A stretch of DNA of 64,000 nucleotides. Source: Fulvia fulva. Lineage: Eukaryota > Ascomycota > Dothideomycetes > Mycosphaerellales > Mycosphaerellaceae. Below the pieces are notes generated by a model. That model had not been told where the DNA came from, did no database searches, and worked only from the letters and a program-made list of their open reading frames with translations. The position numbers and the translations under genes were made by a program. The stretch lies in contig NC_063016.1 of NCBI RefSeq assembly GCF_020509005.1, positions 5,642,001 to 5,706,000 of the forward strand, given 5' to 3'. Positions 4,270 to 46,928 of this stretch are shown piece by piece; position 1 is the first letter of the stretch; every line of letters starts with the position of its first letter.

Positions 4270-5708
<1,439 letters not shown>

Positions 5709-5943
5709 TGTTAAGATGTAGCATCTCAAAGGGAGTCAACAATCAGGAAGTGATCTGGCAGCCTGAGGCATCCACGATGACTCAGCTTGTAGGGAGATAC
5801 CTTCTCTCCCCTTTAGCTTAGATAGACATCCAACACAATCAACATATTGGTTCCTGATATATTGCTGCATGCTCGTGCTATTAGTCAGTTGAAGATTGAT
5901 CTCTTACTCCACTCCGCTGCCATCCACCCGTACCTGTTCAACA
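5709..5943 (+). repeat. copia-1 5' LTR
   Basis: A 235-bp direct repeat of 11089-11323, starting TGTTAAGATGTAGC and ending CTGTTCAACA. It should carry the promoter and the start of the retroelement transcript; I cannot place a TATA box or transcript start with confidence. It keeps C, C and G at the three positions where the 3' LTR has T, T and A. Confidence 0.95.
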
Positions 5944-5958
5944 GGTTATGAGCCCGGG
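5944..5958 (+). promoter_or_regulatory. Primer-binding site matching the initiator tRNA-Met anticodon arm
   Basis: GGTTATGAGCCCGGG abuts the 5' LTR. Its first 12 bases are the reverse complement of GGGCTCATAACC, the anticodon stem-loop (CAU) of eukaryotic initiator tRNA-Met. Use of an internal tRNA fragment (half-tRNA) instead of the tRNA 3' end is established for Drosophila copia and several fungal copia elements. The RIP-treated copia-2 has the matching site at 15269. I infer the same priming mode from sequence only. Confidence 0.8.
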
Positions 5959-6391
5959 TTTGTGCAGGAATAAGAGCAACCTATATCAGTACAGGTTACT
6001 TGTATCCCTTGCTATCGTAGCAGAAAACATCTGGGAATCAGAAGTCTACCCCGTCTATCCTGTCAAGGAGCTTAGTTCGATACTAAGTGATAGGTAACCC
6101 AGACAAGGACTCTGTGCGGCTTACTTAAAGCCAATACCTTGAAGATACTCTGTAGGCAGAACTGCATCGAGATACTATCAAGAAGGACTTCAAGTAAGTC
6201 ATTTGAAGCTCTGCTAGGAGAGACAGACCTGTGTCCTAGCCCCGAGACCTCACACCGCTCCTTCTTTACTTTACCAAGCAGGCCTTGGTATCCACACCTA
6301 CGAACTTTCCCATTCTACACCAGAAGCCTCAGCAGGATCTGAGCCACCACCTTGGAACATACACACCTTGTTTCATTACATCCAATTTATT

Positions 6392-11023: not shown

Positions 11024-11079
11024 AAAGGTCCAAGTACTATTGACAGGAGGTGAGCAGACTGTAACCTCCCATACGAGAT

Positions 11080-11088
11080 GAGTGGGAG
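11080..11088 (+). promoter_or_regulatory. copia-1 polypurine tract
   Basis: GAGTGGGAG sits directly before the 3' LTR, where the plus-strand DNA primer is expected. It is purine-rich with a single T. Assigned by position and composition. Confidence 0.55.
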
Positions 11089-15033
<3,945 letters not shown>

Positions 15034-21000: not shown

Positions 21001-21799
21001 TTATATAATAGACAAAGTAGACAGAGTTTCAATCCTTATATATGTCTTCTTCCTCTAGAGGGCACCAGTTTCTTGGATAAGTAAGAAGCAAAAGTCTGTA
21101 GCAACATCTATAATAGAGGCTAAATATATAGCTATAAATATATATACGAAGCAGTCCTAATTCCTAGCTTTACTACTAAGAGAAATGGATTGTCTAGAGT
21201 TAGTAGGAGACTGTTCCTATTAACTAAGAATCATTAGAAATTAGGAGACTATATCAAATTTGAGACTAGTCTAATTAAGAGGTAACAATCAAGCTGCCCT
21301 CACCCTAGTAAAAGATATATATATTCATAACAAGTCGAAGTATATTAATATTGCCTATAACGCTATTGGGCAACTTTAGTAGGGGAGGCTTATTGCTATT
21401 AAGTACACCCTAACCTCTAAGATAGTTATAGATAGGTTTATAAAACCAAAGACTAGTCTACACTTCTAGAGGTTTATAAGCTAGCTTAACCTATTATAAA
21501 AAGGTCCAAGTACTATTAATAGGAAGTGAGCAGACTATAACCTCCTATACGAGATGAGTAGGAGTGTTAAGATATAGCATCTCAAAGGGAGTTAACAATT
21601 AGGAAGTGATCTAGTAGCCTAAGGTATCTATAATAACTTAGCTTATAGGGAGATACCTTCTCTCCCCTTTAGCTTAGATAGACATCTAATATAATCAACA
21701 CATTAGTTCCTAATATATTGCTATATACTCGTACTATTAGTTAGTTAAAGATTGATATCTTATTCTACTCCGCTACTATTAATCCGTACCTATTTAATA
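15034..21799 (+). mobile_element. RIP-degraded Ty1/copia element (copia-2), interrupted by a pogo derivative
   Basis: Collinear with copia-1: LTRs of 235 bp at 15034-15268 and 21565-21799, a RIP-altered primer site at 15269, and a gag-pol frame destroyed by numerous CpA/TpG to TpA changes. A 1150-bp pogo derivative (19370-20519) splits the reverse transcriptase; removing it restores collinearity with copia-1 around 10,046. The 5-bp flanks (AATAC on the left, CTAAT on the right) do not match, and the flanking gypsy relics belong to different families, so the locus may have been rearranged after insertion. Confidence 0.9.
19370..20519 (-). mobile_element. pogo/Fot1-like internally deleted derivative (copy 2) nested in copia-2
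   Basis: A 1150-bp element flanked by TA at 19368-19369 and 20520-20521, same length and structure as 4270-5419. The minus strand, read with its stops, shows a helix-turn-helix region (IADLLL, then RRHRELKVRITRRYDR), the first catalytic motif YNFDETGF, then VVTGSERRSRKRKVVQ, a stop and GNRE, after which the sequence jumps to a C-terminal segment. About half of a full transposase is absent. It keeps more CA and TG than copy 1 and than the copia-2 around it, so it inserted after most RIP of copia-2. Confidence 0.87.
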
Positions 21800-23958
21800 C
21801 TAATAGTACTTAAAGATCTTATTACGTATATACTATAAGAGCCCGGGCTATATAAAATCCCTTGTAATTAGCTCGTACGTCTTAGCGCGCCCTAGATAAC
21901 CGGCTAATAGTATAGCGTAATAAGCTTAGAATACCTTAAAGCGTAGATCGGGCTTCTCGGGTACGAATACGTTATAGCCGCCGTACCTATTCTTAATATA
22001 GATTAGACCTCCTATTGCTACTACGTTATTATCGTCTATTCGATATTAGCGAAGTAGCGCGTAGGGCTCTCCTATATCGAGCTACCGTATTACTTACTAT
22101 ATTTCGGTAGTATCGTATACTATACGGATCTCTATTATAAGGTCGTTATCCTACCGGCCTAGGCGGATTTCTAATAGGGAGATACTTAGGAAACGATCTT
22201 CCGGTAGTAGGGTCTGTTCCTAATATAGTCTTCGTAGATTGTCGTCGGTAGTAGGAACGTCTTAGGGCCGACGAGTAAGCGTATCGGGTTTAATATTTAT
22301 CTTACTAGGGATATAGATAATCTTAAAGTAGAACTACAATAAGAACTCGGACTAGCGTACCTACCTTCTATTAAGGATCTTTATACTTACGAACTACTCG
22401 AGGTTCTTATAATCTAAATATACTAGAATAGGCTTACCGCTCTTATCCCAAAGGTACTCGAAGTCCGTATTATTGTCGGTATAATCGACATCTCCTACTA
22501 TAAGCTCTAGCTTCTATTCCTTAAACGCCTTTACTATAGCTAGGAGTTCCTTATCGTAGATGTCGTAATTATACTCCTATAGAGACATATTCTTAGACAT
22601 AAACACTACGGGCCGCTATACGCCGTCTTTACCCTTCTACGATAGGACTACGGCTATAACGTAGTCCGAGGCGTTAGTCTCGAGCTTCGTTTCTCGTTTA
22701 GCGACGAAGTAAGTAAGGACTACCTTGTCTTCTATAAATGCCTACTTTATACTATCGAACGCTCGCTAGTTAATATCGTCCTATACCTACGGTACGTCCT
22801 TCTTTATAAGCTATATAAGTAGGTATATAATGCCTAAGTAATTGCGAATAAAGCGCCGGTAGAAGTTATAGAATCTAAGGAACGATAAGATATCCGTAGG
22901 GTTACGAGGTGTCTCCTACTCTTAAATAGCTATAATCTTTTCCTTATCTATTTTGATGCCGTCGGCTCTAGTAATACGTCCGAGGTACTATATTTACTAT
23001 ATATAGAATTCGTACTTATTAATATCGAGTTAGAGCCCGGCTACTTAGAGCCTAGCTATTACCTTATCTATATAGGTAATATACTCCTTAAGCATATCGC
23101 TAGAAATCAGGGCGTCGTCTAGATATACGGAAGTGAAGTCGTCTAGATACTTACGTAACGCGTCGTTAATATATAACTAGAAGCTTCTAGGAGCGTTATA
23201 TAACCCGAAGGGCATAACTAAACATTCGGATTGTCTATAACGAGTCGTAAATACGGGTTTCTATTTGTCGCCTTCCGCGACCCTTAGTCGGTTAAAGGCT
23301 ATAATTATATCTAGCTTTATAAAGTACTTCTTACCGCTTATTCGGTTAAGCGTGTTCTATATAAGTAGAATTAGGTATCGAGATTTCACGGTGATTACGT
23401 TAAGCCCTCGATAGTCGATATAGATACGTAAGCTACCTCCTAGCTTACGGATAATAACAACTAGTACTATAAACGGTAAGTTACTTCGCTAGATATTACC
23501 TTTCTCTAGTTAGTTATCTACCTATACCTTTATAACTTCCGCTTCCTTATTCGATATCGGATACGGACGTTTAAATAGTAGCTTATAGTCTTTCTTAAGC
23601 TTAATCTTATAATCTAGCCTAGGTCGGTACGGAGGTAGCTTTTCTAAGTCTACCTTAGAAAATAGAGCTTTCCGATATTAGTACTCTACCGGTAGCTTAG
23701 ATAGATCAGCCGGCTTCTCCTTACGATATAGCTTCTCTATAAACATATCGTAGTCTATAGCGTTTATCGCGTACACCTCCGCTTAGTACTCCTATCGACG
23801 TTAGAGGGCGCGATAGTAGTCCTTTTTAACGTATATCGTATAAGCGAAAGCGAAGTTGCTAGCTATAACTTTACGAGCCGTTATAGCGTATAGGCCGAGT
23901 ACTTAGGCCGTGACCGGGTCCGCTATACTCTTTATAGCGTAAGTTTCTTACGGGTTAA
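21800..23958 (-). mobile_element. RIP-degraded Ty3/gypsy fragment (gypsy-2)
   Basis: The minus strand read through stops gives a second, distinct gypsy pol: reverse transcriptase with MPFGLYNAPRSF and active site VYLDDALISS near 23,090-23,230, then RNase H (YDKELLAIVKAF near 22,520), then the start of the integrase zinc region (GYLGRAKTYELI near 21,880). It is cut at 21800 by the end of copia-2. At the other end it meets the LINE-A insertion; its upstream part would continue at 29217-29590. No intact frame remains. Confidence 0.75.
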
Positions 23959-29590: not shown

Positions 29591-30641
29591 GGTCGACGAC
29601 GAGAATTATCTATACGTAGTATCGGCTACGAACCTCTCGTCTTACTATAAGAGAGCCAAGTATCCTTACGCTAGAGCGTCGTAGGCGCGACGAGCGCGTA
29701 ACGTAGGCGAAGCCGCGGCGAATAGAGGACTACTAGTAAAACGGGTATAAAAACTATCCGACGAGCGTATACTCGTATCGGGAGCGAGTACCTCTTCTTT
29801 CTACGTATAAGAAGGGCGCGGAACCGTAGCCTATACGCTCGATAGGACACCTCTAGTATAAGTATAGAATTTTCACCTCTAGAGACCGTAAACCGAGCGG
29901 ACTATAGAACAATAACTAAGCGGACTATACGACGGCGTCGAGCGGAGTACGAAACAATCTAGTGTTTACTAGCGGGCAATACGGTAGGTAGGTAGATATA
30001 CGACGAAGCCTATAAGAGCCTATTAAGTACCCGGTATAGGAACGAGGGTTTTACTTAACGCTCTACCTATCCCGCTATATAACGTACCTAGTCTAATATA
30101 GTAGATTACGACGAGGAAAAGACGATAGCCTAAGTAAGGAAAAGACGGCTATTAGGACGGGGAAAAGACGTATAATATAAGTAGATTAGTTCTATAATCG
30201 GGGAGGATCGAGGGTAGGGTAATAAGGAACTTTATATTAGTTAGTAGGTAGAAACGTAAGGAGTACGCTACCCGATGTAGTATATACCCCGAGTAAACCT
30301 ATAAGGTATAGACGGCCGCTTTCTAAAATTAGGCTACGGTAACGTAAAGGGCGTTAAAACCTAGGGCGTAGTAGATACTAGTAGCGACGGCTAATACTAT
30401 CTATATAGCCCGAGAGGACGGATACGTATATCGGTCAATAGAGAGTACTAAAGGGCTTAGGCCTATAGAGGTAGATATTAGCTTAAGGAGTAAATAGGGA
30501 GGGAGGGCGTAGAGAGAAGCTTTTACTCCGGGCTAACCTCTCGAAACGAGGCTATACGGTAGTACTAGATAAGTAGGAAAGCGCGGTTAAGACTTATTAC
30601 CTTATCTCGTAGCTAGCTTACTAAATACGATTCCTTCCTTA
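29591..30641 (+). repeat. Module X, RIP-mutated copy (5' part of a chimeric retroelement)
   Basis: Collinear over about 1.05 kb with 41900-42978, differing mainly by CA/TG to TA changes plus one deletion of about 27 bp within the GAGCGGACTA repeats. Both copies begin GGTCGACGACGAG and lose similarity right after CGATTCCTTCCTT. No protein-coding frame is supported in either copy. Here it is joined to LINE sequence inside the reverse transcriptase. Confidence 0.88.
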
Positions 30642-31510
30642 CCTAGATATCTCCGGAGTATTCGATAATGTCTCCTACAAAAGACTACTCTATATACTCC
30701 GATAAAAGGGAGTCCCCGTATAGGCTACGAAATTTATATACTCCTTCCTTAAAGAGAGGACTACGAGAATAGTCCTCGGGAGGTATAAATCCGAAAGGGT
30801 ATACGTAGAGACCGGAATCTCCTAAGAATCTACGCTATCCCCGATCCTATTCCTAATCTTTATAGCTAACCTCATCCCCTTACTTACGTCCCCTTAGACT
30901 TTGGCTTTAGGCTTCGTAGACGATATAAATATCCTCGCCTAGTCTACGATAACGGAGGAAAACTATAGACTACTTATAAAGAGATATAGAGTATACGGGG
31001 ACTAGGCTAGACGCTACGGCGTCCGTTTTGCCCTAGAGAAATACTAGCTAATCCACTTTAGTAAAGCGAGGCCCTACTATAATATATAAGTAACTATAAT
31101 AATCTAGGGATATAAGACGAAGCCCTCCCCCGAACTCCGAGTACTAGGGATCTAGCTAGACCTAAAGCTAAGCTAGAACCTATAGATTAAGAAGGCCTAG
31201 AATAGGGTATAAGTAAACGAGGCATTAATAACACGTCTTACTAAGTTAACGTAGGGGGCGACCCTCGACAAAGTAAGAATAATATATAAAGTAATCGTTC
31301 GACTAGCGATACTTTACGGGGTACAAATCTAGGGTACGGGAAGAGTCGATAAGCTAGTACCGCGACGGATCGAATACCCTCTTAATCGAACCTAAGTAAG
31401 CGACTTAAGGAGAATTCTCGGAGCGTATAAGACTATACCGACGAGAGTAGCCGAGATAGAGACCGGGACACTACCTATCCCTTACTATATCTAAGGGATA
31501 AGGATCTAAT
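30642..31510 (+). mobile_element. RIP-degraded LINE 3' segment fused to module X
   Basis: Starts at the LDIS-GVFDNVS reverse transcriptase motif and continues through the FVDD-type active site near 30,920 (now D-I) to a region equivalent to codons for ETGTLPIPYYI near 31,460. It is then interrupted by the 3' tail of a minus-strand LINE-B. It is related to but distinct from the other LINE families in the window. Together with 29591-30641 it forms an X-LINE chimera whose fusion point differs from the one at 42978. Confidence 0.8.
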
Positions 31511-31568
31511 ATAGATAGATAGATAGATTTGTCATTCCCCTATTCTAGGACCCTATCCGGCCTATATA
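31511..31568 (-). mobile_element. 3' tail of the RIP-treated LINE-B host copy
   Basis: GATA-repeat tail plus about 45 bp of LINE-B 3' end. It belongs to the older LINE-B at 36114-40593, separated from it by insertion of the younger LINE-B. Positions 31555-31568 are the left copy of that insertion's TSD. Confidence 0.85.
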
Positions 31569-31742
31569 GATAGATAGATTTGTCATTCCCCTGTTCTAGG
31601 ACCCTATCCGGCCTATGCAGGTATATATCTATTGTTATGTACAAAGGGAAACCCGAATAGGTGAAAACCCTTCCCGCCCCCGACTACTCCTTGTCTAGAT
31701 TAGCTTTCCCTCTGAACGTACGTAGTCCATGTCACTACCCCG

Positions 31743-34700
31743 TTAGCCCCCGCTCCTAGCCGGTCTCGTCGCGCTGCGTCGTGTCCTCTCTTCCTGCACT
31801 GCTCCTACTAGGCGGTACTGTTCTAGCCAGCCCTTCTCTAGTATCCAGTTCGTAATGCGCCGTAGGTCTTCAGCGTTGTTAAGAAGTGCCCCAATCGTCC
31901 GGTTCCTCGCCTTTGCCATCCACTCCCCCCTTCCTAGCGACCACCTCGGACAGACGAGGAGTGCGTGCCGTACGTTCTGGGAGCGATAGCCGCAGGGGCA
32001 GCTAGTATTCGTGTATCCTGGAACCTTCCTCCATGATAGGTACCCCTGGAGGCCGATGTGTTCGCTTCGCAGTTGGGTTGCTATGCTACTCTGTGCCCTC
32101 GTAAGGCGGTAGTGGATGAGCTTCGGGGGGTGCTTGACCGCGGATTTTGTAGCTGACCATTCCTTAGGTTGTCCCGCTGGCTGAGGGCGTCCACTATGCC
32201 CTACAACCTGGTTGTTCCACCTCTCTTTCCATAGTTGCTCTACAAACGATTTCTCACCTTCCCATTGTGTTGCTAGCTGTTCGTCCCTTGCCCGGTAGTT
32301 CGGCTCGTTTCCGGGTCGAATGCCCTTGTGCGCTGGTACTGATTCGCGGGCCCTTGCGACTGCACTGGCGATGACCTTCTGTACTGGGTACTGTGCCGAC
32401 TTGCCTAAGTAGGAGGTCCGTAGTCCCTGGATGTATAGGTCGATCGGCGGTATAGCGGTCTCGTGCTCAAGCATCCTCGTTGGTGTCGACTTATATGCCC
32501 CGGTGACCTTCCTTAGGCATTGGTTTTGGATCTTCGCTAGCGGCGCGACGAGTCCCTTCGATGGGCAGGCCCTCTCGCCTAAGGACCACACTTGGCTGCC
32601 ATAGGTAAGGACTGGCCGTACAATAGCCGTATATAGAAGTCGTGACTGCCGGAAGTCCGCCCCCCATGTGGACGCAGTGAGCCTCTGGCATGATGCCATA
32701 TTCTGTTCAGCTTTCCGTAATATTGCCTGTACGTGCTTCCTCCACCGTAGCGCCGGGTCCACCCATAGTCCGAGGATCCTGAGCTGATTTGCCGGGTTAG
32801 TCGTGTGCCCCTGTATCTGGATAGAAGCTTGCATATTGTGGAACCGTGGCCGGCGCGTAAAGTGTATCAGATTGTACTTTTCTGGGGCAAACCGAGCCCC
32901 GTGCCTCCTAGCCCAGTCCTCGCAGATCTTGTGCTTCTCTTCTAGTAGCCTACAGTTCTCCTCAGTCGAGGAAGACCACGCTAGGATGTTTGTGTCGTCT
33001 ACGAAGCCGCTCGCAGCGGTGTTCTGGGATTCTAGGGCTGGGAGCAGCGTCGCCATAAAGAAGAGGAACAGAATAGGTGCTAGCGTTGAGCCTTGCGGGA
33101 TTCCAGTGTGGACTGCTTGAAATGGGCTTCTGTACTGGCCGACCAGGATCGACGTACTGCGGTTTTGGAGGTAGGACCGTACGAAGTTGACAAGCCACTC
33201 AGGGAGTCCTTTCGACCTTAGGATGTAGAGAAGCCGCGGGTGTGACACGTAGTCGAAGGCTCCCGATATGTCTAGGCTAAGTAAGGAAGCCACCTTGTCC
33301 CTATTCTTATACCAGATGGCCTTTACCTGAGAGGTGATAAGTTCCATCGCGGATAGCGTCGATCGCTGTGGGCGCGCACCCATCTGGGTGTCCGGGAGTA
33401 GGGAGTGTTCCTCTGCCGCCTCGGAGAGTCTCGTTGCAACCAGCTTCTCAAGCGCCTTCCCAAGAGTGTTAAGGAGCGCAATTGGGCGGTACGACTTCAC
33501 CTGCGTATAGTCTTCCTTCTGCGGCTTGCGTAGGACCACTGTCGTCGATTGCTTAAAAGCTATCGGGTGGTATCCGGTCTGTAGGCAGGCGTTGAAGATC
33601 GCTGCAACTGCTGGGGCTAGTTGATCTCTACACTTCTTTAGTAGCTCGTTTGGGATCCCATCCGGCCCCGGGGCTTTCTTCGCCGGCAACTTCCTTAGCA
33701 CAGCGGTAACTTCTCCCTCGGACACCTCCTGTTGGACCGCGATGCTAGGGGCTAGGGGAGTAGAGCTGTTTATGTCGCTTAGATCAGCCTCGACTGGGGG
33801 TGGGAAGAACTTGCTAGCCAGTAGACGCGCCTTGGCCTCGGGGTCGCTAACCGGGCCACTAGGCGATTGTAGCGCTGGGATAGAGAAGGAGGGGCCCTGT
33901 GTAGGGTCCTGTCGGGCCCATTTCGCTAGCTTCCACATCCTCTCTGGCTTGCCGGCGATTTCTTCCACTGTGGCCCTCCAGCCGACTGCTTTCTCCCTCC
34001 GTATTATGGCTTTCTTCTGTTGGCATGCCTCCCTGTATACGTTCCAGGCCTCCTCGCTATGGCTGCTCGTCCACACCCGGCGGGCTCTCCTTGCTTCTCT
34101 TACTACCGCAGTGCACTCCGGCGTCCAGTATGGTTTGGACCATGTCGTTGGTTGGGCAAGCGGAACGTGAAGTGAGGTCGCTTTTCTTATTTCGTCTGTC
34201 AACCCCTGGACTGCTTCGTCTATCTCGTCTTTACTGTTGTATTGCTGCTGCGCGATCTGGACTAGCCTCTTGGAGTCATCGAGGTACGCCTGGATGTTGG
34301 CCCAGTGGGCCTTTCCCCAGTTTGGCTTAGGGGTTCTCGCTGGTGTGCGTTGTATCTGTGTCGCAATAGAGGTCCTGACTGGCATGTGGTCTGACGACGC
34401 CTCGAGTTCATGTTCGATCCCACAGTAGGTTACCGTGTGGTAGTGGCTATCTGAGATCCAGGAGAGGTCGATCGTGCCTTGGAGTCCCCCTCTCTTCCAG
34501 GTGCCCAGGTCCTTCGGGGTATTGAGGGCAATTGCGTTGCTCGCCATCAAGTCGAGTACTTCGTCGGCTATAGGGTGCGGCTGCATAAGGCTTTCCCAGG
34601 AAGGGTGGTGTATGTTGAAGTCTCCTACTACGATGTGGCACCCTTGTCTCTTGAGCGCACTGTCTAGGTGTCTGCAGACCCCTAGGTCGCGGCTAGACCT

Positions 34701-35060
34701 CGAGGCTGGCGGTTGCATGTATAGGTTGTGTATCCAGGTGCTACCCACGTGGAGGGAGGTAATATCGCCCCCGCCTTCTTCGTCTGCGTAGTACACTACC
34801 TCCCAGTCGGATTCTAGTATGTCCTTGCTGACATAGAAGCACGTGCGGGGTCTGCCGTCGCCTCGTAGGCATGTCGTGTAGCCTGGTGACTTGCAGGTCG
34901 TTGGTCTCTTATGGTGCGGGTTAATCCATGGCTCCTGGATTGCAAGGACGTGGTGGACGCGCGGGTCCGCCTCGTGTAGGAAATGGTTCTGGACTATATC
35001 CTTGCTATGGTTGACGTTATACTGGATGATGCTAAGCGTGTCGAGGCTAGTCATCGGCAT
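31743..35060 (-). CDS. LINE-B ORF2: endonuclease and reverse transcriptase
   Basis: About 1105 residues, intact. It would nick target DNA and copy the element RNA in place. The N-terminal ~225 residues form an APE/EEP endonuclease (IIQYNVNHS at the start, QEPW, VGDFNIHHP, SSDHMPV). A linker precedes the reverse transcriptase (RKPQKEDYTQ, SYRPIALLN, then the active site GFVDDTNILAW at about 685-695). Near the C-terminus is CPCGYRSQNVRHALLVCP, the Cys/His motif common in Tad-like ORF2. I see no RNase H domain. The first ATG codons are at 35060 and 35054; both overlap the ORF1 stop (35049-35047), which suggests translation by termination-reinitiation. The truncated copy at 3340-4104 encodes the same C-terminus. 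Confidence 0.93.
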   Translation of the reverse strand: MPMTSLDTLSIIQYNVNHSKDIVQNHFLHEADPRVHHVLAIQEPWINPHHKRPTTCKSPGYTTCLRGDGRPRTCFYVSKDILESDWEVVYYADEEGGGDITSLHVGSTWIHNLYMQPPASRSSRDLGVCRHLDSALKRQGCHIVVGDFNIHHPSWESLMQPHPIADEVLDLMASNAIALNTPKDLGTWKRGGLQGTIDLSWISDSHYHTVTYCGIEHELEASSDHMPVRTSIATQIQRTPARTPKPNWGKAHWANIQAYLDDSKRLVQIAQQQYNSKDEIDEAVQGLTDEIRKATSLHVPLAQPTTWSKPYWTPECTAVVREARRARRVWTSSHSEEAWNVYREACQQKKAIIRREKAVGWRATVEEIAGKPERMWKLAKWARQDPTQGPSFSIPALQSPSGPVSDPEAKARLLASKFFPPPVEADLSDINSSTPLAPSIAVQQEVSEGEVTAVLRKLPAKKAPGPDGIPNELLKKCRDQLAPAVAAIFNACLQTGYHPIAFKQSTTVVLRKPQKEDYTQVKSYRPIALLNTLGKALEKLVATRLSEAAEEHSLLPDTQMGARPQRSTLSAMELITSQVKAIWYKNRDKVASLLSLDISGAFDYVSHPRLLYILRSKGLPEWLVNFVRSYLQNRSTSILVGQYRSPFQAVHTGIPQGSTLAPILFLFFMATLLPALESQNTAASGFVDDTNILAWSSSTEENCRLLEEKHKICEDWARRHGARFAPEKYNLIHFTRRPRFHNMQASIQIQGHTTNPANQLRILGLWVDPALRWRKHVQAILRKAEQNMASCQRLTASTWGADFRQSRLLYTAIVRPVLTYGSQVWSLGERACPSKGLVAPLAKIQNQCLRKVTGAYKSTPTRMLEHETAIPPIDLYIQGLRTSYLGKSAQYPVQKVIASAVARARESVPAHKGIRPGNEPNYRARDEQLATQWEGEKSFVEQLWKERWNNQVVGHSGRPQPAGQPKEWSATKSAVKHPPKLIHYRLTRAQSSIATQLRSEHIGLQGYLSWRKVPGYTNTSCPCGYRSQNVRHALLVCPRWSLGRGEWMAKARNRTIGALLNNAEDLRRITNWILEKGWLEQYRLVGAVQEERTRRSATRPARSGG

Positions 35061-36099
35061 CGACAATCATTTCCTCTGTATCGTCCTGTGTCCTACTGCC
35101 CTGTGCGTCCTGGTCTACGCCTATCGGCTGTGTACTAAAGGGGAGCCGGGCCTGGTTAGATTCCCTCGCCGCAGCTAGCAGAGCACGTGGCCTCCCGTAC
35201 GCCCTAGGCTGCGCATCCTTTACATCGTTCTCGGCCCTAGGGCGCTTGTGCCCGACCGCCGCTAGTTGGTTCCGGTGTGGGCTAGCCTCACGGTCGCCGT
35301 AGAATCTTGGGGCGACGGTTCTGTTTGTGATTGCCTTGTTTTTCGCTAGTTTCCGCTGTGGGCATTCCGCACTATACGATGGGTGGTGCCCCGGACAGTT
35401 CGCGCACCGTCTCGTAGTCGATGTACAGTCCCTAGACATATGGTCTCCTGCACAGTTCGAGCAGGCCTGCTTGTTTGTGCACGTGTAGGTTTGGTGTCCA
35501 TACTGTTGGCATTTGAAGCATTGGAGGACACGAAAGGATGAGGAGTGCTTTTATACTGTCTTGAGGCTGTATTGCCAGACCAGGCCTTGTTCTATCGCTA
35601 GATCCGCCGCTTTCGCGTCTTGTAGCCATACTATTAGCGCCGAGGCCTTCTTGCCTTCTGGCCATTTCCTATGGAGCCAAGTCGCCTTCTGGATTGGAGA
35701 GTTAAGAGTGACCGGGTTGTCCTCTTGGAGAGCGCGTAGGTGACCCTGGTTGGTTGGGTCAAACTCCTTAGGCATGTCGTGGACTAGGATCGTGAATTGT
35801 TTCGTTGAGACCTTCGCTGATGCCGCAACCTTAGATGCCCACTGTGGCTGTGCCTCTAGGTGCCTCCTAGTAGTAGCAGAGCTAGTATAGATCTGTAGAG
35901 TGCCGTTGGACTGTTGGTTCACTGCGACCACCCCTGGTTGGTTGATTCGTTGGGCGAGCTCCTTGTTCGATAGCTTCGCAACTTCGGCCTGGTCTTCCTT
36001 TGCTGCAATGCGGATCGTAACTGCATCGTGCGTTGGGCGGGGGCCTGGTATCGATGCCGCGACCGATGCCCAGCTATGGGGGTGTTGATTCCGGGTGGC
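35047..36099 (-). pseudogene. LINE-B ORF1 (gag-like, CCHC zinc knuckles), interrupted by one stop
   Basis: The frame is open from the first base of the element to a TAA at 35551-35553, then continues in the same frame to 35047. The first part is a gag-like RNA-binding region; after the stop come CCHC knuckles beginning CFKCQQYGHQTYTC and two more Cys/His sets, then a basic tail. At the position of the stop the older LINE-B copy (near 40,050) reads GAG, so the stop is specific to this copy. No ATG lies in frame near the 5' end; the in-frame Met upstream of 36099 belongs to flanking DNA. A non-AUG start or a lost start codon are both possible. Confidence 0.82.
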
Positions 36100-36113
36100 A
36101 TCCGGCCTATATA

Positions 36114-39100
36114 GGTATATATCTATTATTATGTACAAAGGGAAACCCGAATAGGTGAAAACCCTTCCCGCCCCCGACTACTCCTTATCTAGATTAGCTT
36201 TCCCTCTGAACGTACGTAGTCTATGTCACTACCCCGTTAGCCCCCGCTCCTAGCCGGTCTCGTCGCGCTACGTCGTGTCCTCTCTTCCTATACTACTCCT
36301 ACTAGGCGGTACTGTTCTAGCCAGCCCTTCTCTAGTATCTAGTTCGTAATGCGCCGTAGGTCCTTAGCGTTGTTAAGAAGTGCCCTAATCGTCCGGTTCC
36401 GCGCCTTTGCTATCCACTCTCCCCTTTCTAGCGACTACCTCGGACAGATGAGGAGTGCGTACTGTACGTTCTAGGAGCGATAGCCGTAGGGGTAGCTAGT
36501 ATTCGTGTATCCTAGAACCTTCCTCTATAATAGGTACCCCTAGAGGCCGATATGTTCGCTTCGTAGTTAGGTTACTATGCTACTCTATACCCTCGTAAGG
36601 CGGTAGTAGATAAGCTTCGGGGGGTGCTTAACCGCGGATTTTATAGCTAACTATTCCTTAGGTTGTCCCGCTAGCTAAGGGCGTCCACTATGCCCTACAA
36701 CCTAGTTGTTCTACCTCTCTTTCTATAGTTGCTCTATAAACGATTTCTTACCTTCCTATTATATTACTAGCTGTTCGTCCCTTACCCTATAGTTCGGCTC
36801 GTTTCCGGGTCGAATGCCCTTATACGCTAGTACTAATTCGCGGGCCCTTCCGACTACACTAGCGATGACCTTCTATACTAGGTACTGTGCCGACTTGCCT
36901 AAGTAGGAGGTCCGTAGTCCCTAGATATATAGGTCGATCGGCGGTATAGCGGTCTCGTACTTAAGTATTCTCGTTAGTGTCGACTTATATACCCCGGTGA
37001 CCTTCCTTAGGCATTAGTTTTAGATCTTCGCTAGCGGCGCGACGAGTCCCTTCGATAGGCAGGCCCTCTCGCCTAAGGACCATACTTAGCTACTATAGGT
37101 AAGGACTGGCCGTATAATAGCCGTATATAGAAGTCGTGACTACCGGAAGTCCGCCCCCTATATAGACGTAGTAAGTCTCTAGCATAACGCTATATTCTGT
37201 TTAGCTTTCCGTAATATTGCCTATACGTGCTTCCTCTACCGTAGCGCCGGGTCTACCTATAGTCCGAGGATCCTAAGCTAATTTGCCGGGTTAGTCGTAT
37301 ACCCCTATATCTAGATAGAAGCTTATATATTATAGAACCGTGGCCGGCGCGTAAAGTGTATTAGATTGTACTTTTCTAGGGTAAACCGAGCCCCGTACCT
37401 CCTAGCCTAGTCCTCGTAGATCTTATGCTTCTCTTCTAGTAGCCTATAGTTCTCCTTAGTCGAGGAAGACTACGCTAGGATGTTTGTGTCGTCTACGAAG
37501 CCGCTCGTAGCGGTGTTCTAGGATTCTAGGGCTAGGAGTAGCGTCGCTATAAAGAAGAGGAATAGAATAGGTACTAGCGTTAAGCCTTACGGGATTCTAG
37601 TATAGACTACTTAAAATAGGCTTTTATACTAGCCGACTAGGATCGACGTGCTACGGTTTTAGAGGTAGGACCGTACGAAGTTAACAAGCCACTTAGGGAG
37701 TCCTTTCGACCTTAGGATATAGAGTAGCCGCGGGTGTGACACGTAGTCAAAGGCTCCCGATATGTCTAGGCTAAGTAAGGAAGCCACCTTGTCCCTATTC
37801 TTATACTAGTTAGCCTTTACCTAAGAGGTAATAAGTTCTATCGCGGATAGCGTCGATCGCTATAGGCGCGTACCTATCTAGGTGTCCGGGAGTAGGGAGT
37901 ATTCCTCTACCGCCTCGGAGAGTCTCGTTATAACTAGCTTCTTAAGCGCCTTCCTAAGAGTGTTAAGGAGCGTAATTAGGCGGTACGACTTTACCTACGT
38001 ATAGTCTTCCTTCTACGGCTTACGTAGGACCACTATCGTCGATTGTTTAAATACTATCGGGTAGTATCCGGTCTATAGGTAGGCGTTAAAGATCGCTACG
38101 ACTACTAGGGCTAGTTGATCTCTATACTTCTTTAGTAGCTCGTTTGGGATCCTATCCGGCCCCGGGGCTTTCTTCGCCGGTAATTTCCTAAGTATAGCGG
38201 TAACTTCTCCCTCGGACACCTCCTATTAGACCGCGATACTAGGAGCTAGGGGAGTAGAGCTATTTATGTCGCTTAGATTAGCCTCGACTAGGGGCGGGAA
38301 GAACTTACTAGCTAGTAGACGCGCCTTAGCCTCGGGGTCGCTAACCGGGCTACTAGGCGATTATAGCGCTAGGATAGAGAAGGAGGGGCCCTAGATAGGG
38401 TCCTATCGGGCCCATTTCGCTAGCTTCTACATCCTCTCTAGCTTGCCGGCGATTTCTTCTACTATAGCCCTCTAGCCGACTACTTTCTCCCTCCGTATTA
38501 TAGCTTTCTTCTATTAGTATGCCTCCCTATATACGTTCTAGGCCTCCTCGCTATAGCTGCTCGTCTATACCCGGCGGGCTCTCCTTGCTTCTCTTACTAC
38601 CGTAGTGTACTCCGGCGTCTAGTATAGTTTGGACTATATCGTTAGTTAGGTAAGCGGAACGTGAAGTAAGGTCGCTTTTCTTATTTCGTCTATCAACCCC
38701 TAGACTGCTTCGTCTATCTCGTCTTTACTGTTGTATTACTACTACGTAATCTAGACTAGCCTCTTAGAGTTATCGAGGTACGCCTAGATGTTAGCCTAGT
38801 AGGCCTTTCCCTAGTTTAGCTTAGGGGTTCTTACTAGTATACGTTGTATCTATATCGTAATAGAGGTCCTGACTAGTATATAGTCTAACGACGCCTCGAG
38901 TTCATGTTCGATCCTATAGTAGGTTACCGTATAGTAGTAGCTATCTAAGATCTAGGAGAGGTCGATCGTGCCTTAGAGTCCCCCTCTCTTCTAGGTGCCT
39001 AGGTCCTTCGGGGTATTAAGGGCAATTACGTTGCTCGCTATCAAGTCGAGTACTTCGTCGGCTATAGGGTACGGCTATATAAGGCTTTCCTAGGAAGGGT

Positions 39101-40593
39101 AGTATATGTTGAAGTCTCCTACTACGATATAGCACCCTTGTCTCTTCAGCGTACTGTCTAGGTGTCTATAGACCCCTAGGTCGCGGCTAGACCTCGAGAC
39201 TAGCGGTTGTATATATAAGTTGTGTATCTAGGTACTACCTACGTAGAGGGAGGTAATATCGCCCCCGCCTTCTTCGTCTACGTAGTACACTACCTCCTAG
39301 TCGGATTCTAGTATGTCCTTGCTAATATAGAAGCACGTACGGGGTCTGCCGTCGCCTCGTAGGCATGTCGTATAGCCTAGTACTTTATAGGTCGTTAGTC
39401 TCTTATAGTACGGGTTAATCTATAGCTCCTAGATTACTAGGACGTAGTAGAAGTACGGGTCCGCCTCGTATAGGAAATAGTTCTAGACTATATCCTTCCT
39501 ATAGTTAACGTTATACTAGATAATACTAAGTATATCGAGGCTACTTATCGGTATCGATAATTATCTCCTCTACAATATCCTATATCCTACTACCTTATAC
39601 GTCCTAGTCTACGCCTATCGGCTATATACTAAAGGGGAGCCGGGCCTAGTTAGATTCCCTCGCCGTAGCTAGTAGAGTACGTAGCCTCCCGTACGCCCTA
39701 GGTTACGTATCCTTTATATTATTCTCGGCCCTAGGGCGCTTATACCTAACCGCTACTAGCTAGTTCCGGTATAGACTAGCCTTACGGTCGCCGTAGAATC
39801 TTAGGGCGACGGTTCTGTTTATAATTGCCTTGTTTTTTGCTAGTTTCCGCTATAGGCATTCCGCGCTATACGATAGGTAGTACCCCGGACAGTTTACGTA
39901 CCGTCTCGTAGCCGATATATAGTCCCTAGATATATAGTCTCCTATATAGTTCGAGTAGGCCTACATGTTTATATACGTATAGGTTTGGTGTCTAGACTAT
40001 TAGTATTTAAAGTATTAGAGGACACGAAAGGATAAGGAGTGCTTCTCTACTATCTTAAGGCTATATTACTAGATTAGGTCTTGTTCTATCGCTAGATCCG
40101 CCGCTTTCGCGTCTTATAGCTATACTATTAGCGCCGAGGCCTTCTTACCTTCTAGCCATTTCCTATAGAGCCAAGTCGCCTTCTAGATTAGAGAGCTAAG
40201 AGTGACCGGGTTGTCCTCTTAGAGAGTACGTAGGTGACCTTAGTTAGTTAGGTCGAACTCCTTAGGTATATCGTAGACTAGGATCGTAAATTACTTCGTT
40301 AAGACCTTCGCTAATACCGTAACCTTAGATGCCTACTATAGCTATGCCTCTAGGTGCCTCCTAGTAGTAGTAGAGCTAGTATAGATCTATAGAGTACCGT
40401 TAGACTATTAGTTCACTACGACTACCCCTAGTTAGTTAATTCGTTAGGCGAGCTCCTTATTCGATAGCTTCGTAACTTCGGCCTAGTCTTCCTTTACTAT
40501 AATACGGATCGTAACTATATCGTACGTTAGGCGGGGGCCTAGTATCAATATTGCGACCGATACCTAGCTATAGGGGTGTTAATTCCGGGTGGC
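36114..40593 (-). mobile_element. RIP-degraded full-length LINE-B copy
   Basis: Collinear with 31626-36099 over its entire length but with CA and TG mostly changed to TA, on both strands. ORF1 and ORF2 are destroyed. Its 3' tail lies at 31511-31568, displaced by the younger insertion. Its 5' end (CCGGGTGGC, ending 40593) is the same as in the younger copy. I could not find a convincing TSD for this older copy. Confidence 0.9.
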
Positions 40594-41285: not shown

Positions 41286-41899
41286 TTTAATACCTAGCGT
41301 CTTATTCTATTAGTATATTCTTAGATAAAGGCTATAAGAAGGTAGTATAGATACTAATAGATAGGCGAGTAGATTTCTTAGCCCGATTAAGAAGATATAG
41401 TATACTACTCTCTATATCTTTAAGACGTTAATAGAGCTATATATTAGTCTTTATAAAGTAATTATATTAATAGGTAGGATACCTATCTTAAATAAGGTAC
41501 TAGGACGACCCCGTAAACTAATTAGGGATTCTATAGTAGATAGAATAGACAAATTACGGCAATTCTAATTTTATAAATAAATAGTAACTTAACTAACGAA
41601 CGTTCTTCTATCTCTGATTTCTTCGCGCAATTAGCCACTTCGCTATTCGCGTAGTCGACTTAGTTAAGCCGTTCTTTCGGGCAAGTTTACTCTTATCTTA
41701 GCGTAGTTTACTCGGCGAGTACTTCCGTATAATAAATTGATATATATTGTTCCGCAACTCGTCCCGTAATATCGAGAGAGGTACGATATAAAGCTTAGGT
41801 TCCGATCTAAGTATCTTAGAAACCCTATTAAGAACTTTAGTAGACGTTATTGTTCGAGACGAATCCCCGAGAGTAGTACTACGCGTATATATCCTTGTC

Positions 41900-42978
41900 G
41901 GTCGACGACGAGAATCACCTGTACGTGGTGTCGGCTACGAACCTCTCGTCTAGCTACGAGAGAGCCAAGTATTCTCACGCTGGAGCGTCGTGGGCGCGAC
42001 GGGCGCGTAGCGTAGGCGAAGCCGCGGCGAACAGAGGACTACCAGCAAAACGGGTATGAAAACCATCCGACGAGCGTGTACTCGTGTCGGGAGCGAGTCC
42101 CTCTTCTTTCTACGTGTAAGAAGGGCGCGGAACCGTGGCCTATACGCTCGACAGGACACCTCTGGTATGAGTGCAGAATTTTCACCTCCGGAGACCGCAA
42201 ACCGAGCGGGCTAAGCGACGAACATTGGACGAGCGGACTACAGAACAACAACTGAGCGGACTATGCAACGGCGTCGAGCGGACTACGAAACAATCTGGTG
42301 TTTGCCAGCGGGCAATGCGGTGGGTAGGTGGACACGCGACGAAGCCTGTAAGGGCCTGTTGAACACCCGGTATGGGAACGAGGGTTTTGCCTGAGGCACT
42401 GCCTGTCCCGCTACACAACGCACCTAGTCTGACATGGTAGATTGCGACGAGGAAAAGACGATAGCCTGAGCAAGGAAAAGACGGCTGTTAGGACGGGGAA
42501 AAGACGTACAATGCAAGTGGATTAGTTCTGTGATCGGGGAGGATCGAGGGCAGGGTGATAAGGAACTTCATATTGGTTAGTAGGTGGAAACGCAAGGAGT
42601 ACGCTGCCCGGCGTGGTGTGTGCCCCGAGCAGACCTGCGAGGCATGGACGGCCGCTTTCTAGAGATAGGCTGCGGTAACGCGAAGGGCGTCAAAACCTGG
42701 GGCGTGGTGTACACTGGCAGCGACGGCTGACACTGTCTGTACAGCCCGAGAGGACGGATGCGCATGTCGGTCAATAGAGAGCACTAAAGGGCTCAGGCCT
42801 ATGGAGGTGGATATTGGCTTAAGGAGCAAACAGGGAGGGAGGGCGTAGAGGGAAGCTTTTGCTCCGGGCTAACCTCTCGAAACGAGGCTACACGGTGGTG
42901 CTAGATGAGTGGGAAAGCGCGGTTAAGACTTGTCACCTTATCTCGTAGCTAGCTTGCTAAATACGATTCCTTCCTTGC
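41900..42978 (+). repeat. Module X, unmutated copy
   Basis: About 1.08 kb without a credible ORF on either strand. Features seen: a perfect 7-bp hairpin CTCTCGT-CTAGCT-ACGAGAG near 41,953-41,972; four spaced copies of a GAGCGG(A/G)CTA motif at 42,204-42,287; G+C content clearly higher than the RIP-treated surroundings. It lacks LTR or LINE motifs. It may be a non-coding RNA that is captured by LINE reverse transcription, or the 5' region of an undescribed retroelement. Confidence 0.85.
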
Positions 42979-45900
42979 ACTTGTAATGACCGGAGATACC
43001 ACACCGTAATCGCGGGCCAACGAGGCGTCAACCCGAGGACATGTATATACGTAAGCAAGACTATAGACCTTGAGTCGTGGAAGGTTATACTACCGCAGCA
43101 GGGCAACCTAGGAGACATAACATCAATCCAGATCGACACGACACAAGGCCCTATCCAGATCCATAACGTTTACAACCCGCCACCGCGGGGTCGGACGAGT
43201 AGGGAACTAGGAACCCTCGCCCACCTAGAGCGGACCCTAAGCCAAGACACGAAGCAAGTACTCCTCGGCGACTTCAACCTCCACCACCCACAGTGGGGAC
43301 TCGAATTCACTCCCCCGCACGCATTTCTAGGGGGGAAGCTACTGGACATAACCGCACGCTACGGAATGGCCTTAGTAACACCAAAGGGAACAGAGACGTG
43401 GAAGGCCCGTACTAGTGCAAGCACGATCGACCTATGCTTTCTATCACGAGAACTTGAAGAGAGACTAGTCCAATGCCGACCGAACTACGCGCTAGAAGCC
43501 TCCTCAGACCATATCCCTATCCAAACGACGCTAGGGGTGAAGGCGATAGAGGAGCCAGCAAACGAACCACGCCGTAACTGGAAGAAGGCACGCTGGGACG
43601 ACATAAGAGGCTTCCTAATAGCGAACCTACCACAGCATAGAGAACTCGAGACGACAGCTCAGCTAGATCAAGCAGCGGAACAGATTACCTCGGTCATATG
43701 GCAAGCAGCGGAACAATACACGCCGTTACTCCGGCCCTCAACGCAGCAGAAGGCCTTCTGGACCCCTGAATGCTCTACGAAGGTAAGGGAGGCTAGAAGG
43801 GCAAGGCGACAGTGGACGAAGGAGCACACCCAAGAGACGTGGGAGCAATACTGCCACGCGACACAAGAGAAGAAGGCACAGATAAGACGCGATAAGCTGC
43901 AGGACTGGAGAGCGACGATCGGGCTCGTTACAGAAAACCCGGAACAGATGTGGAGACTTGCTAAATGGGCACGACTACCTGAAGAGCAACAAGCCCCTCA
44001 CTTCCCCCCAATCGTAGACCGCGAAGGGATTGCCCAGGCTACGCCCCGGGGCAAGGCAAAAGCGTTAGCCGACCATTTCTTTTCGACGCAAGTAGAGGCA
44101 GACCTTACGGACATCGACCCGAGCACATACCCGGAACCCCTGGACATGGATTGGGCGGTTAGCCCTAACACAGTAACAGGAGTCATAAGTAAGCTAAAGG
44201 GACGAAAAGCCCCAGGCCCAGACAGGATACCAAACGTACTGCTAAAAGAGTGTAGAGAAGAGATCGCGCCGAGCCTTGCAAACCTATTTACCGCGTGCCT
44301 ACGGCTAGGGTATCACCCGAAGCCGTACAGAGAGTCTATGACAGTAGTGCTACGCAAGCCACAGAAGGAAGACTATACTCAGCCCAAGTCGTACAGACCA
44401 ATAGCACTTCTAAATACGATAGGGAAGGTCCTAGAAAAGATAGTAGCCCAGAGACTTACGCAGCTTGCCGAGGACAACCACGTACTCCCAGCAACACATA
44501 TGGGGGGAAGAAGCCAGCGATCGACACTAACAGCAATGGAGCTAATTACGGAGCAAATCCAGACCCTCTGGCACTACGGCAGGAACCGAGCGGCGTCCTT
44601 ACTATCCCTCGACATCGCAGGGGCCTTCGACAACGTCTCACACCAAAGGCTAATACATATCCTACAGCAGAAAGGCATCCCCCAGTGGGCAACGTCGTTC
44701 GTCTTCTCCTTTCTCCAGGAACGGACGACATACCTAGTCCTAGGAAGGTACACGTCCGACCCGGTGAAGGCAGAGACTGGAATACCTCAGGGATCTACTC
44801 TCTCCCCTATCCTGTTTCTAATATTTATGTCGGATCTAATCCCCCTACTCACCTCTCCGCAAACCTCAGCATCGGGGTTCGTAGACGATACAAACATCCT
44901 AGCCTGGTCAGACTCGACAGAAGAGAACTGTCGCCTCCTTGAAGATAGGCACAAGAAATGCGAGGAGTGGGCAAAGAAGCATGGTGCCCGGTTCGCCCCT
45001 GAAAAGTACCAACTTATACACTTCAGTAAAGCGAGAACACACCATAATATGAAGGCGGCGGTAAGAATCCAAGGCTACGAGACCAAGCCATCAGCGGAGC
45101 TACGAGTACTAGGGATCTGGCTCGACCCGAAGCTAAGCTGGAATGTACAGATTAAGAAAGCCCAGAGTCGAGCGCAAGTCAATGAAGCCTCGATAAAGAG
45201 GCTTACGGCATCTACATGGGGAGCAACATTCGACAAGGCAAGAGTAATGTATAAGGCGATCGTCAGACCAGCTATGTTGTACGGGGCACAGATTTGGGGA
45301 ACAGGAGGCGCAGGCAAGCCGATCCCGAAACGGATAGAGCAACCCCTAAACAGGACACAGGCAGGCAACCTACGTAGGGTACTAGGCGCATACAAGACAA
45401 CGTCAACAAGCACGGTAGAAATGGAGACAGGAATACCACCAATCGGCCAGTACATCCGGGGAATGAGAATTCAATACGCGGCAAAGACGACAGGTTACCT
45501 AGCACAAACCACGATCCAGGAGGCAAAGAATAAGATAGAAAGCCGCTACCGGAGAGGGGCAGGATATAGGACAAGCCAAAAAGAGGATGACCTTACGACC
45601 TTTACGGCCGTACAGACAAGCACCGAATGGCTAGCACGAAAGGAGGAGGAGCGTAGGACTCGCCAGGCCGGCGGGAGCAAGGCTAAGACCCGAAACCTAG
45701 CGGAACAGATAGCGAGCTGCCTATGGGAGCAGGACTGGAAAAGGAAGCCCCCTAAGACAACAGGCCCGATAGCGCTCCGAGCCTTCCAGAGACACAATTA
45801 CCAGCTATATAGGGACCTGACAAGGGCCGAAGCAAGCATAGCGATCCAAATCAGGTCCGAACACATTGGATTAAGGGCCTACCTGTTCAGAAGACGCGCA

Positions 45901-46176
45901 CTAGACATCTATAGCCCAGCCTGCCAGTGTGGCTACCCATCGCAAAACCCAGAACATATGCTACTACGATGCCCGCAGTGGGCGAGAGGCAGGGGAAATT
46001 GGAGGCACCAAGCGGGAAGGAGAGACTACAAGTCAATTATTAGGGACAAAGGCAACATTCGCCGAATCTCTCGGTGGATACTACAGCAGGGATACCTCCA
46101 GCAGTTTAGCCTCGCGAGCGAGACGGAGGAGTGGATAGACAAGAGGCGGAAGCGAGGGGGGTTGCAGATAGGGTAG
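42979..46176 (+). pseudogene. LINE-A ORF2, 5'-truncated, otherwise open
   Basis: The frame is open from the X junction to 46176 without a stop. The first Met at 43366 is internal, not the original start. Retained endonuclease motifs include LLGDFNLHHPQW and SSDHIPI; reverse transcriptase has RKPQKEDYTQ, SYRPIALLN, LDIAGAFDNVS and the active site GFVDDTNILAW near 44,880; the C-terminus has CQCGYPSQNPEHMLLRCP. The N-terminal part of the endonuclease and all of ORF1 are missing, so the copy is not autonomous, though the RT could fold. Identity of the 3' UTR and tail with LINE-A indicates mobilisation by LINE-A machinery. Confidence 0.9.
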
Positions 46177-46388
46177 TCATCAGGGCAGGCCCATGACACT
46201 AGCGTACCCCTAACAAGGGAAATTTAAGACGACAACGAGGAGGAAAAGACAGGCGGGAAGGAGGAGGGGTTTTCACCAACACGGTTTCCCCTCTATATAT
46301 ACAAAAACAAGATAGCATAGCTGCATAGGCCAAAGGGCACTACAACAGCTTAATGAAATATCTATCTATCTATCTATATATCCTTGTC

Positions 46389-46928
46389 CGTATAAGATCT
46401 ATTATACTATTTCTTTCTAATAACTCTCTCGGTATAAGCTTTAATATCGTAATCTAACTATTGTTTCCTATCGAACTAGTTCTGATTTCGAACCCTCTAT
46501 ATAGTAGCCTAAACGCTATAAGTATAAGTCTTTCTCCTAGGACAATCGAAATAAGCCGATTCTTAGACGTTTAGAACCGCCGGGGAGAAACCGTCAGCCC
46601 CTTAGCAAGCATCGTTCTTCTTCTATAGATTGAATTGCTAGTAAAGGGCGTCGTAAGAGTAGTAAAAGCCGTAGTAATCGCCGGTAGGTATTCTTAACTA
46701 GTATATCTACTTTAAAGCTACGGCCTTATAGTCGAGGGAGTAAGCTAGCTTAGTTGTATATACTAATATAGATAAAAGAACTAGCTATAGGGTCTTTGCT
46801 AACGACAGTATCGTAGGATGAGATTCCTCTCGAGTTAATATATATATAATCGATAATAGAAGCGGTATTGTCCTATAACGGTAAAGATCGCCTTGTATAT
46901 ATAGTAGCTTGACACTTAGTACATTGAC
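46389..46928. other. RIP-treated relic sequence between the chimera and the right inverted-repeat arm
   Basis: The other half of the relic that received the chimera (the first half is 41573-41885). No motif is recognisable in translation on either strand. Confidence 0.4.

Follow-up and report, generated by a model that had tools for sequence, protein, structure and literature searches.

How does a retroelement come to carry at its 5′ side a sequence that is not its own, and is such a fusion made once and inherited or made again and again? This question is raised by a locus in a stretch of 64,000 nucleotides from the genome of Fulvia fulva (NC_063016.1, positions 5,642,001–5,706,000), which we call the window. 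At 41886–46388 of the window a non-coding module, designated X, is joined to a long interspersed nuclear element (LINE), designated LINE-A. Chimeric LINE retrotranscripts are already known, as are the MINE elements (WEIRD-MGL) of Magnaporthe, and the original prediction ascribed the fusion to a Mine-like process. We suggest that X, a non-coding module of 1,078 nt, has most likely spread only as the second template of LINE reverse transcription, with a 5′ end presumably cleaved by a predicted ribozyme; we give this a probability of about 0.77. As to the type of element, our best reading of X is a WEIRD-like, obligate second-template retroelement.

Structure of the chimera

The module X is found at full length at 41900–42977 on the forward strand, with the constant 5′ end GGTCGACG.. 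and the constant 3′ end ..CCTTCCTTG; its longest stop-to-stop frame comprises 101 codons and its GC content is 56%. The joint to LINE-A is direct and without filler, and the base at 42978, a C, can be assigned to X or to the LINE. The LINE-A fragment (42978–46359, forward strand), recognized by other copies of the same LINE in the genome, is 5′-truncated inside its endonuclease domain. Its open frame (42961–46176, forward strand) contains endonuclease (PF14529/PF03372) and reverse transcriptase (PF00078) domains, and it is followed by an (ATCT)n tail (46360–46374, forward strand), which was read directly and is of the same kind as the tails at other X loci. A target-site duplication (TSD) of 14 bp, TATATATCCTTGTC, encloses the whole element: the 5′ copy at 41886–41899, read directly on the forward strand, is repeated exactly at 46375–46388, which is 4475 bases past the X start. 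The original prediction was therefore right in describing a ~1.08-kb non-LINE module fused to LINE-A within the endonuclease domain, and a single TSD around the entire fusion with the LINE tail at its 3′ end.

Named relatives near the top of the protein list for LINE-A come from Stemphylium (51%) and, with 80% of the query covered, from Passalora fulva (57%). For the clade of these LINEs we adopt the name Tad1 from the description of the genome of Cladosporium (Fulvia) fulva Race 5, whose consulted part gives 67.17 Mb on 14 chromosomes, a LINE Tad1 content of 16.3% and the presence of repeat-induced point mutation (RIP) (PMC9453070). By eye, three spaced copies of GGAAAAGACG/GGGAAAAGACG and four of GAGCGGRCTA can be recognized as repeats in the part of X at 42200–42520; they are possibly protein-binding sites.

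Copies of X and their partners

The search of the genome for all copies of X, their junctions and their TSDs, as proposed with the original prediction, was run on the assembly of 67,169,167 bases in 14 contigs and returned numerous X ends with variable LINE junctions and with TSDs. At least 40 full copies and one partial copy were found in the DNA search with X, and the 40 best-scoring copies have at most 4 differences per 1,078 bases to the window copy. Genome-wide, the exact 20-mer of the X 3′ end occurs 546 times and the exact 16-mer of the 5′ end 452 times, as compared with 0 for the reversed-pattern control; both words are poor in RIP targets. Given these numbers and the near-identical copies, a chance origin of X is excluded. 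Among the matches listed there are 100 X 3′ ends, all on C1 of the assembly. For 77 of them the intact 5′ marker lies at full-length distance, and when 20 of the other 23 were examined, nine proved to be full length with altered first bases. X is mostly full length and the LINE partner is usually cut. Seen from the LINE tails, a listed X end is located at most 5.6 kb upstream on the same strand for 20 of the 50 intact LINE-A tails on C1 and for 10 of the 94 intact tails of a second LINE, LINE-B; this pairing was made by coordinates only and a few pairs may be neighbouring elements.

The 3′ flanks were read for 134 of the 546 X ends, including all 100 listed C1 ends. X runs in sense orientation into a LINE reference in 129 cases and into another piece of X in two (L020 at X position 165, L252 at X position 297), which represent double jumps of the types X-X-LINE (L020) and X-X (L252). 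The other three ends (L066, L247 and L253) match no reference and are followed by a LINE-type ORF1, as judged by eye. No solo X was present among these 134 ends. The references that X is joined to comprise LINE-A, LINE-B, family C (L016, L024), family D (L017) and others, so that several LINE families are involved. Five of the references (C16, C17, C24, A5 and B5b) are the loci L016, L017, L024, L065 and L059 and thus match themselves; their LINE nature rests on their tails, their TSDs and their similarity to other LINEs. Perfect TSDs of 11–16 bp surround X and LINE in 19 of the 21 complete loci. At L059, where both ends were read and the middle is unread, X precedes a LINE-B of ~5 kb and one 12-bp TSD encloses all. 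Therefore, the jump appears to be possible also after run-off near the LINE 5′ end.

The LINE-B of L059 has by eye 35 extra nucleotides at its 5′ end, differing from the start that is common to L107–L109; they may stem from a 5′ transduction or mark a variant of LINE-B. The X-bearing LINE families have in common an (ATCT)n tail and TSDs starting with TAT, CTAT or TCTAT, and thus seem to share target and tail rules. On C1, four X 3′ ends are found on one strand at 8826064–8838760 with spacings of ~4.67, 4.67 and 3.3 kb, perhaps a local duplication of one chimera.

Two other element types were considered. The 3′ tail of its own that a short interspersed nuclear element (SINE) would have was not found for X, whose ends run into LINE or X (three of them by eye) in the 134 read. 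Likewise, none of the exact X 5′ ends has an exact X 3′ end in the 30 nt preceding it, and hence neither a tandem X array nor a retrozyme or other tandem self-cleaving repeat with head-to-tail X monomers was encountered.

Position of the joints within the LINEs

In the table of 133 junctions 62 rows were not used (LINE match below 96%, start offset, no upstream reference, X-X joint or unmatched). The used rows list 42 LINE sites in 71 copies; without the self-matching reference B5b and one duplicate LINE-B site there are 40 distinct break points among 70 mappable copies, located in LINE-A, LINE-B and family C. The LINE-A sites 1628 and 1629 lie in one run of C and may be one site. A further listed C1 end outside the 133-row tables was read separately and is joined at LINE-A 1160.

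The break points obey a simple rule. At the 42 sites, the base just before the break is a pyrimidine (Y) in 41 cases, the base before that is a purine (R) in 38, and C is the first retained base in 38 and the second in 30. All 38 sites with C as first base are preceded by Y, against a LINE background of 0.45 (binomial p 4e-14). R-Y-C across the break is found at 34 of the 40 sites, as compared with 630 of 9,666 background positions (6.5%). By eye, the same codons of the reverse transcriptase domain are broken at LINE-A 1628, at LINE-B 2825, in LINE-C at TCACTGGACATATC and at a second joint in the window at 30641. On the other side of the joint, the terminal TTG of X is followed by C at 111 of 115 ends (T at three, A at one), a count from which 18 of the 133 ends, picked for a base other than C after TTG, were left out. 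This C may stem from X, by one-base pairing, or from the LINE. As a control set only three X-less LINE truncations were available in the sequence examined, too few to be compared with the R-Y-C rule; the rule may mark jumps alone or early stops in general. Cleavage of RNA under a rule by which the X–LINE RNA would likewise be cut at the joint is unlikely, because the last base of X is G, a base that precedes the break at none of the LINE sites except in the self-matching row.

X haplotypes and LINE junctions

When the sequence differences among the young copies of X are compared with their junctions, the two turn out to be uncoupled. The X haplotype of the window is shared by 12 of 40 young copies, which have ten junctions in several LINE families. 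A second haplotype (569A/733A/895T) is found in 6 exact copies with six junctions in LINE-A and LINE-B, and a third one, defined by 518G alone, in 4 copies with four junctions, including one X-to-X joint. Conversely, the recurrent site LINE-A 1470 is joined in its four copies to four different X haplotypes (L021, L023, L026 and L039). Therefore, the X RNA is probably an independent template, and X has been captured repeatedly. The identical X haplotypes at different LINEs and different points bear out the original prediction, which had explained the variable LINE junction and the constant X junction by repeated capture of one RNA.

Two readings in which X is inherited as part of a finished element have to be weighed against repeated capture. 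According to the first one, X and LINE were fused on one or a few occasions in the past, and the resulting chimeras have since propagated as complete units. This would agree with the recurrence of some junctions (LINE-A 1160 in eight copies and 1628 in five; ten copies at one LINE-C site), which could partly be re-transposed chimeras, and with the loci L040 and L041, which share their junction as well as two single-nucleotide polymorphisms. On the contrary, a single ancestral chimera with a constant junction is at variance with the 40 LINE positions in 70 mappable copies from three families, and the distribution of the same X haplotype over different junctions, together with the four haplotypes at LINE-A 1470, is not explained by multiplication of complete units. 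We thus regard this reading as quite improbable; as the main route it is contradicted, while it is possible for a minority of the copies, and the recurrent junctions possibly reflect both hot spots and some re-transposition of finished chimeras. Apart from these shared junctions, repeated capture of a complete X followed by regular insertion is less well matched by 11 of the 20 unmarked C1 copies examined, which are truncated, shifted or interrupted, and by L013 and L014, which have no TSD.

According to the second reading a third LINE family exists, with X as its genuine 5′ region. This is hardly conceivable. X has no long open reading frame (ORF) and is joined to different LINE families at many internal points, in the endonuclease, in the reverse transcriptase and (by eye) in ORF1; X as the 5′ untranslated region or ORF1 of a third LINE is contradicted by these internal joins. 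In addition, the LINE-B copies L107–L109 share a different start by eye, and X precedes even the ~5-kb LINE-B of L059.

A569, A733 and T895 are also present in four old copies of X. These bases could also be the result of RIP-type decay; taken as ancestral, they make the window type look derived, and the source of X would then have changed over time or be present in several copies. Many of the differences of the 40 young copies (window, L009–L047) to the window copy are A-to-G at positions 213, 314, 389, 473, 518, 794, 914 and 941 and T-to-C at 363, 474 and 758. Errors of the reverse transcriptase or A-to-I editing of the X RNA are possible causes of these exchanges.

A predicted ribozyme at the 5′ end of X

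A new feature, absent from the original prediction, is a P4-less self-cleaving ribozyme similar to that of hepatitis delta virus (HDV), which is predicted on nucleotides 1–51 of X (41900–41950 of the window, forward strand). This sequence, GGUCGAC-GACGAGA-AUC-ACC-UGUACGU-GGU-GUCGGCU-ACGAACC-UCUCGUC, could form a nested double pseudoknot with P1 of 7 pairs (1–7/31–37; 41900–41906/41930–41936), P2 of 7 pairs (8–14/45–51; 41907–41913/41944–41950) and P3 of 3 pairs (18–20/28–30; 41917–41919/41927–41929) with a loop L3 of 7 nt. P1 would start at base 1 of X, the putative cleavage site. C39 (41938) in the sequence C-G-A-A between P1′ and P2′ has the position of the HDV-like catalytic C and is demanded by the descriptor that we used; for P1.1, weak pairings are possible in the X 5′ region by eye only, and P4 is absent. 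Minimal HDV-like ribozymes without P4 exist according to the consulted part of PMC10879173, and HDV-like forms without P4 are described for R2 of the silkmoth in that of PMC3774820. A ribozyme starting at base 1 would explain the exact 5′ end of X.

Within X the descriptor matches at base 1 (with a shifted match at base 2) and nowhere else. Shuffled sequences gave 4 matches in 611,400 positions, none of them with a P2 of 7 pairs. In both strands of the window there are 7 matches in 127,880 positions, two of which are bases 1 and 2 of X, and with a junction of up to 40 nt there are 20 matches in the same number of positions. As the fold had already been recognized by eye when the descriptor was drawn up, all these rates are guides only. 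In Rfam the only match of the X 5′ region at E values up to 10 is the HDV ribozyme (RF02682), whose model position 1 falls on base 1 of X.

Alternatively, the resemblance to a ribozyme could have arisen by chance, and X would then begin at the start site of a promoter. Several results are in favor of a coincidence and weaken our prediction. The score for RF02682 is 13.1 bits, below the gathering threshold of 44 bits (E 2.1). A strong hairpin in competition with P2 is possible at nucleotides 44–63. The minimum-energy fold of nucleotides 1–70 consists of P1, a shifted P3 of 5 pairs and this rival hairpin without P2, and P1 is missing when the whole X is folded; the folding programs used draw no pseudoknots. 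Three decayed copies of X no longer fit the descriptor, the lightly decayed one of L059 does. The search brought up no relative of X from which covariation could be read, and the copies themselves give no covariation signal, since 42 of the 45 copies with a 5′ end are identical over nucleotides 1–51. The search for relatives gave an exact 19-mer in one viral contig, a 17-mer in at least 120 stretches of prokaryote genomes and a best alignment of 22 bases over 121 loci, all of which we consider as chance matches of short patterns. Nevertheless, a coincidence would have to place the fold on the one base that is defined by the junctions. With five other matches in 127,880 positions for the short junction and 18 for a junction of up to 40 nt, such a match is expected at a rate of ~0.00004–0.00014 per preset position. 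Thus, we consider a coincidental fold unlikely and keep to the predicted ribozyme.

A second known ribozyme at the 3′ end of X was also looked for and no credible Rfam match was obtained; the one entry returned was a bacterial thermometer at E 2.9, on the opposite strand. The Rfam search of 41800–46400 at E values up to 5 gave nothing.

Proposed mode of propagation

From these data the following course of events can be proposed. Transcription running into X, whatever the insertion site, would yield an RNA that the predicted ribozyme cuts at G1. An RNA of X, ending on its own at CCTTCCTTG(C), would be present near the LINE complex. The joints have no poly(A), and such a free RNA would be ~1,078 nt long and end in CCUUCCUUG or CCUUCCUUGC. 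Reverse transcription of the LINE would start at the target on the LINE tail and halt at an R-Y-C site of the LINE RNA. The LINE enzyme would then jump to the 3′ end of X and copy X up to G1, where, as the joints suggest, the 5′ junction would be closed exactly. By analogy with R2 one may speculate that the ribozyme fold on the finished template aids the formation of the 5′ junction: in R2-based insertion the best 5′ modules of the template are stable HDV-like folds (PMC11331408, part consulted). X might in this way provide truncated LINE copies with a stable 5′ end, a possible reason for its success.

Where the X RNA is transcribed from is the point at which a further alternative has to be considered. 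X could be an ordinary host gene of a non-coding RNA, which is abundant and captured passively, and then X would not be a mobile element. That view, a captured host RNA, is the published one for WEIRD, and WEIRD RNA is reported there to be highly expressed and was proposed to be a housekeeping RNA (PMC2104539, part consulted). It is in line with X being non-coding and full length in most copies. In contrast to this, no solo X was met in the 134 ends read from a 14-contig assembly; the other 412 of the 546 ends lie outside this sample, and a solo X gene may exist among them, which counts against our view. The repeated capture of several haplotypes would be better suited by several sources, though a single evolving gene could give the same picture. 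Finally, a ribozyme head is typical of mobile elements and not of host RNA genes. We regard the host gene as doubtful, with a chance clearly below even, but as an alternative to be taken seriously. In view of the lack of a free gene among the 134 of 546 ends read, the chimeras themselves may be the source of X RNA.

Tentatively, and somewhat short of even odds, we go one step further. X might be the first obligate second-template retroelement, a mobile non-coding RNA that itself never initiates reverse transcription, with a ribozyme-cut 5′ end, a self-defined 3′ end and no free gene, made by its own chimeras and multiplied only via several LINE enzymes that jump at R-Y-C stops, perhaps favored by a ribozyme fold that serves as an efficient 5′ end in insertion, and WEIRD might be the same kind of element in another fungal class.

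Comparison with MINE and other chimeric elements

The closest known system is MINE, for which we rely on the consulted part of PMC2104539. In both systems the 5′ part is non-coding, full length and of ~1.1 kb (WEIRD 1113 nt, X 1078 nt), the 3′ part is a 5′-truncated LINE in the same orientation, TSDs measure 10–20 bp (11–16 bp for X), double jumps occur and no solo copy has been found (for X, among the 134 ends read). They also obey the same donor rule. The authors name the switch rule of Magnaporthe GCC*A/U; by our own count 15 of the 18 rows in the MINE table have R-Y-C, to be compared with 34 of 40 sites for X. With one ambiguous base allowed, the MINE rows carry R-Y-C before the authors' break and the X sites across it, a shift by one base that is expected from the ambiguous C shared by both partners. 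As the rule is found in two fungi, it points to a property of LINE reverse transcriptases. The systems differ in their scale (546 exact X 3′ ends, 31 MINEs reported), in their partners (at least three LINE families for X, one LINE and one SINE for WEIRD) and in the predicted HDV-like ribozyme, which the consulted part of PMC2104539 does not mention for WEIRD. On the level of sequence the comparison was restricted to three published 20-nt MINE/WEIRD primers, which gave no match to X above shuffled controls. Hence the Mine-like process of the original prediction is supported by the architecture and the R-Y-C rule of the junctions.

Chimeras of the small nuclear RNA (snRNA) U6 with L1 and other mammalian chimeras resemble X in that a LINE enzyme jumps to a second full-length RNA and direct repeats surround the whole (PMC2104539, part consulted; see also PMC4476161). 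The acceptor U6 is a host RNA with its own genes, whereas the 134 ends read include no free gene for X. An HDV-like ribozyme similar to the one predicted for X is located at the 5′ end of the RNA in R2, L1Tc and other LINEs (PMC3774820, part consulted; see also PMC4035085); however, the ribozyme of R2 and L1Tc belongs to the LINE, whereas that of X is predicted on a separate non-coding module joined to foreign LINEs.

With SINEs X has in common that it is non-autonomous, non-coding and dependent on a LINE enzyme. Reverse transcription of SINEs starts with a LINE-like 3′ tail. While SINEs thus start on their own tail, X has none in the ends read and is always a later template.

In 2007 WEIRD was described as having neither a solo gene nor relatives in other genomes (PMC2104539, part consulted), and a later answer to its origin was not seen in the open-licence literature searched. 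Among the matches listed from this literature, titles and abstract starts contain no report of a module like X in Fulvia fulva, of an HDV-like ribozyme on WEIRD or of WEIRD outside Magnaporthe. Two Fulvia genome papers have no passage with "chimer" (searched in the second as a whole word only), and the second does not contain WEIRD. X therefore represents a second and far larger system, in a Dothideomycete, of the same length class and with the same donor rule, in a near-complete assembly, and makes the question posed by WEIRD testable: does such a module derive from a host RNA that is captured, or is it a mobile RNA living on template jumps? The prediction of a ribozyme can be tested easily at the bench and would account physically for the precise 5′ end of X. 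Should X improve the formation of 5′ junctions, nature would have in it an equivalent of those HDV-like 5′ modules which performed best in R2-based gene insertion (PMC11331408, part consulted).

Other elements in the window

A second copy of X lies at 29591–30640 on the forward strand. It is decayed and 84% identical to the first copy; of the 138 differences 46 are C-to-T and 82 G-to-A, an excess that is the RIP-like decay mark of an old copy. The copy is followed at 30641–31507 (forward strand, right edge approximate) by the decayed reverse transcriptase region of another LINE. The joint of this second copy to a different LINE within its reverse transcriptase had been described correctly before.

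Between the two X loci a pair of LINE-B elements is arranged head to tail on the reverse strand at 31561–36099 and 36100–40593. By eye, the upstream decayed LINE-B of this pair seems to lack the last 40-odd bases of the LINE-B tail, and the pair may be the product of a template jump from LINE to LINE. Short-period tandem repeats are present at 5420–5708 and 11320–11641, in two related large elements (~4251–11641 and 15036–21805).

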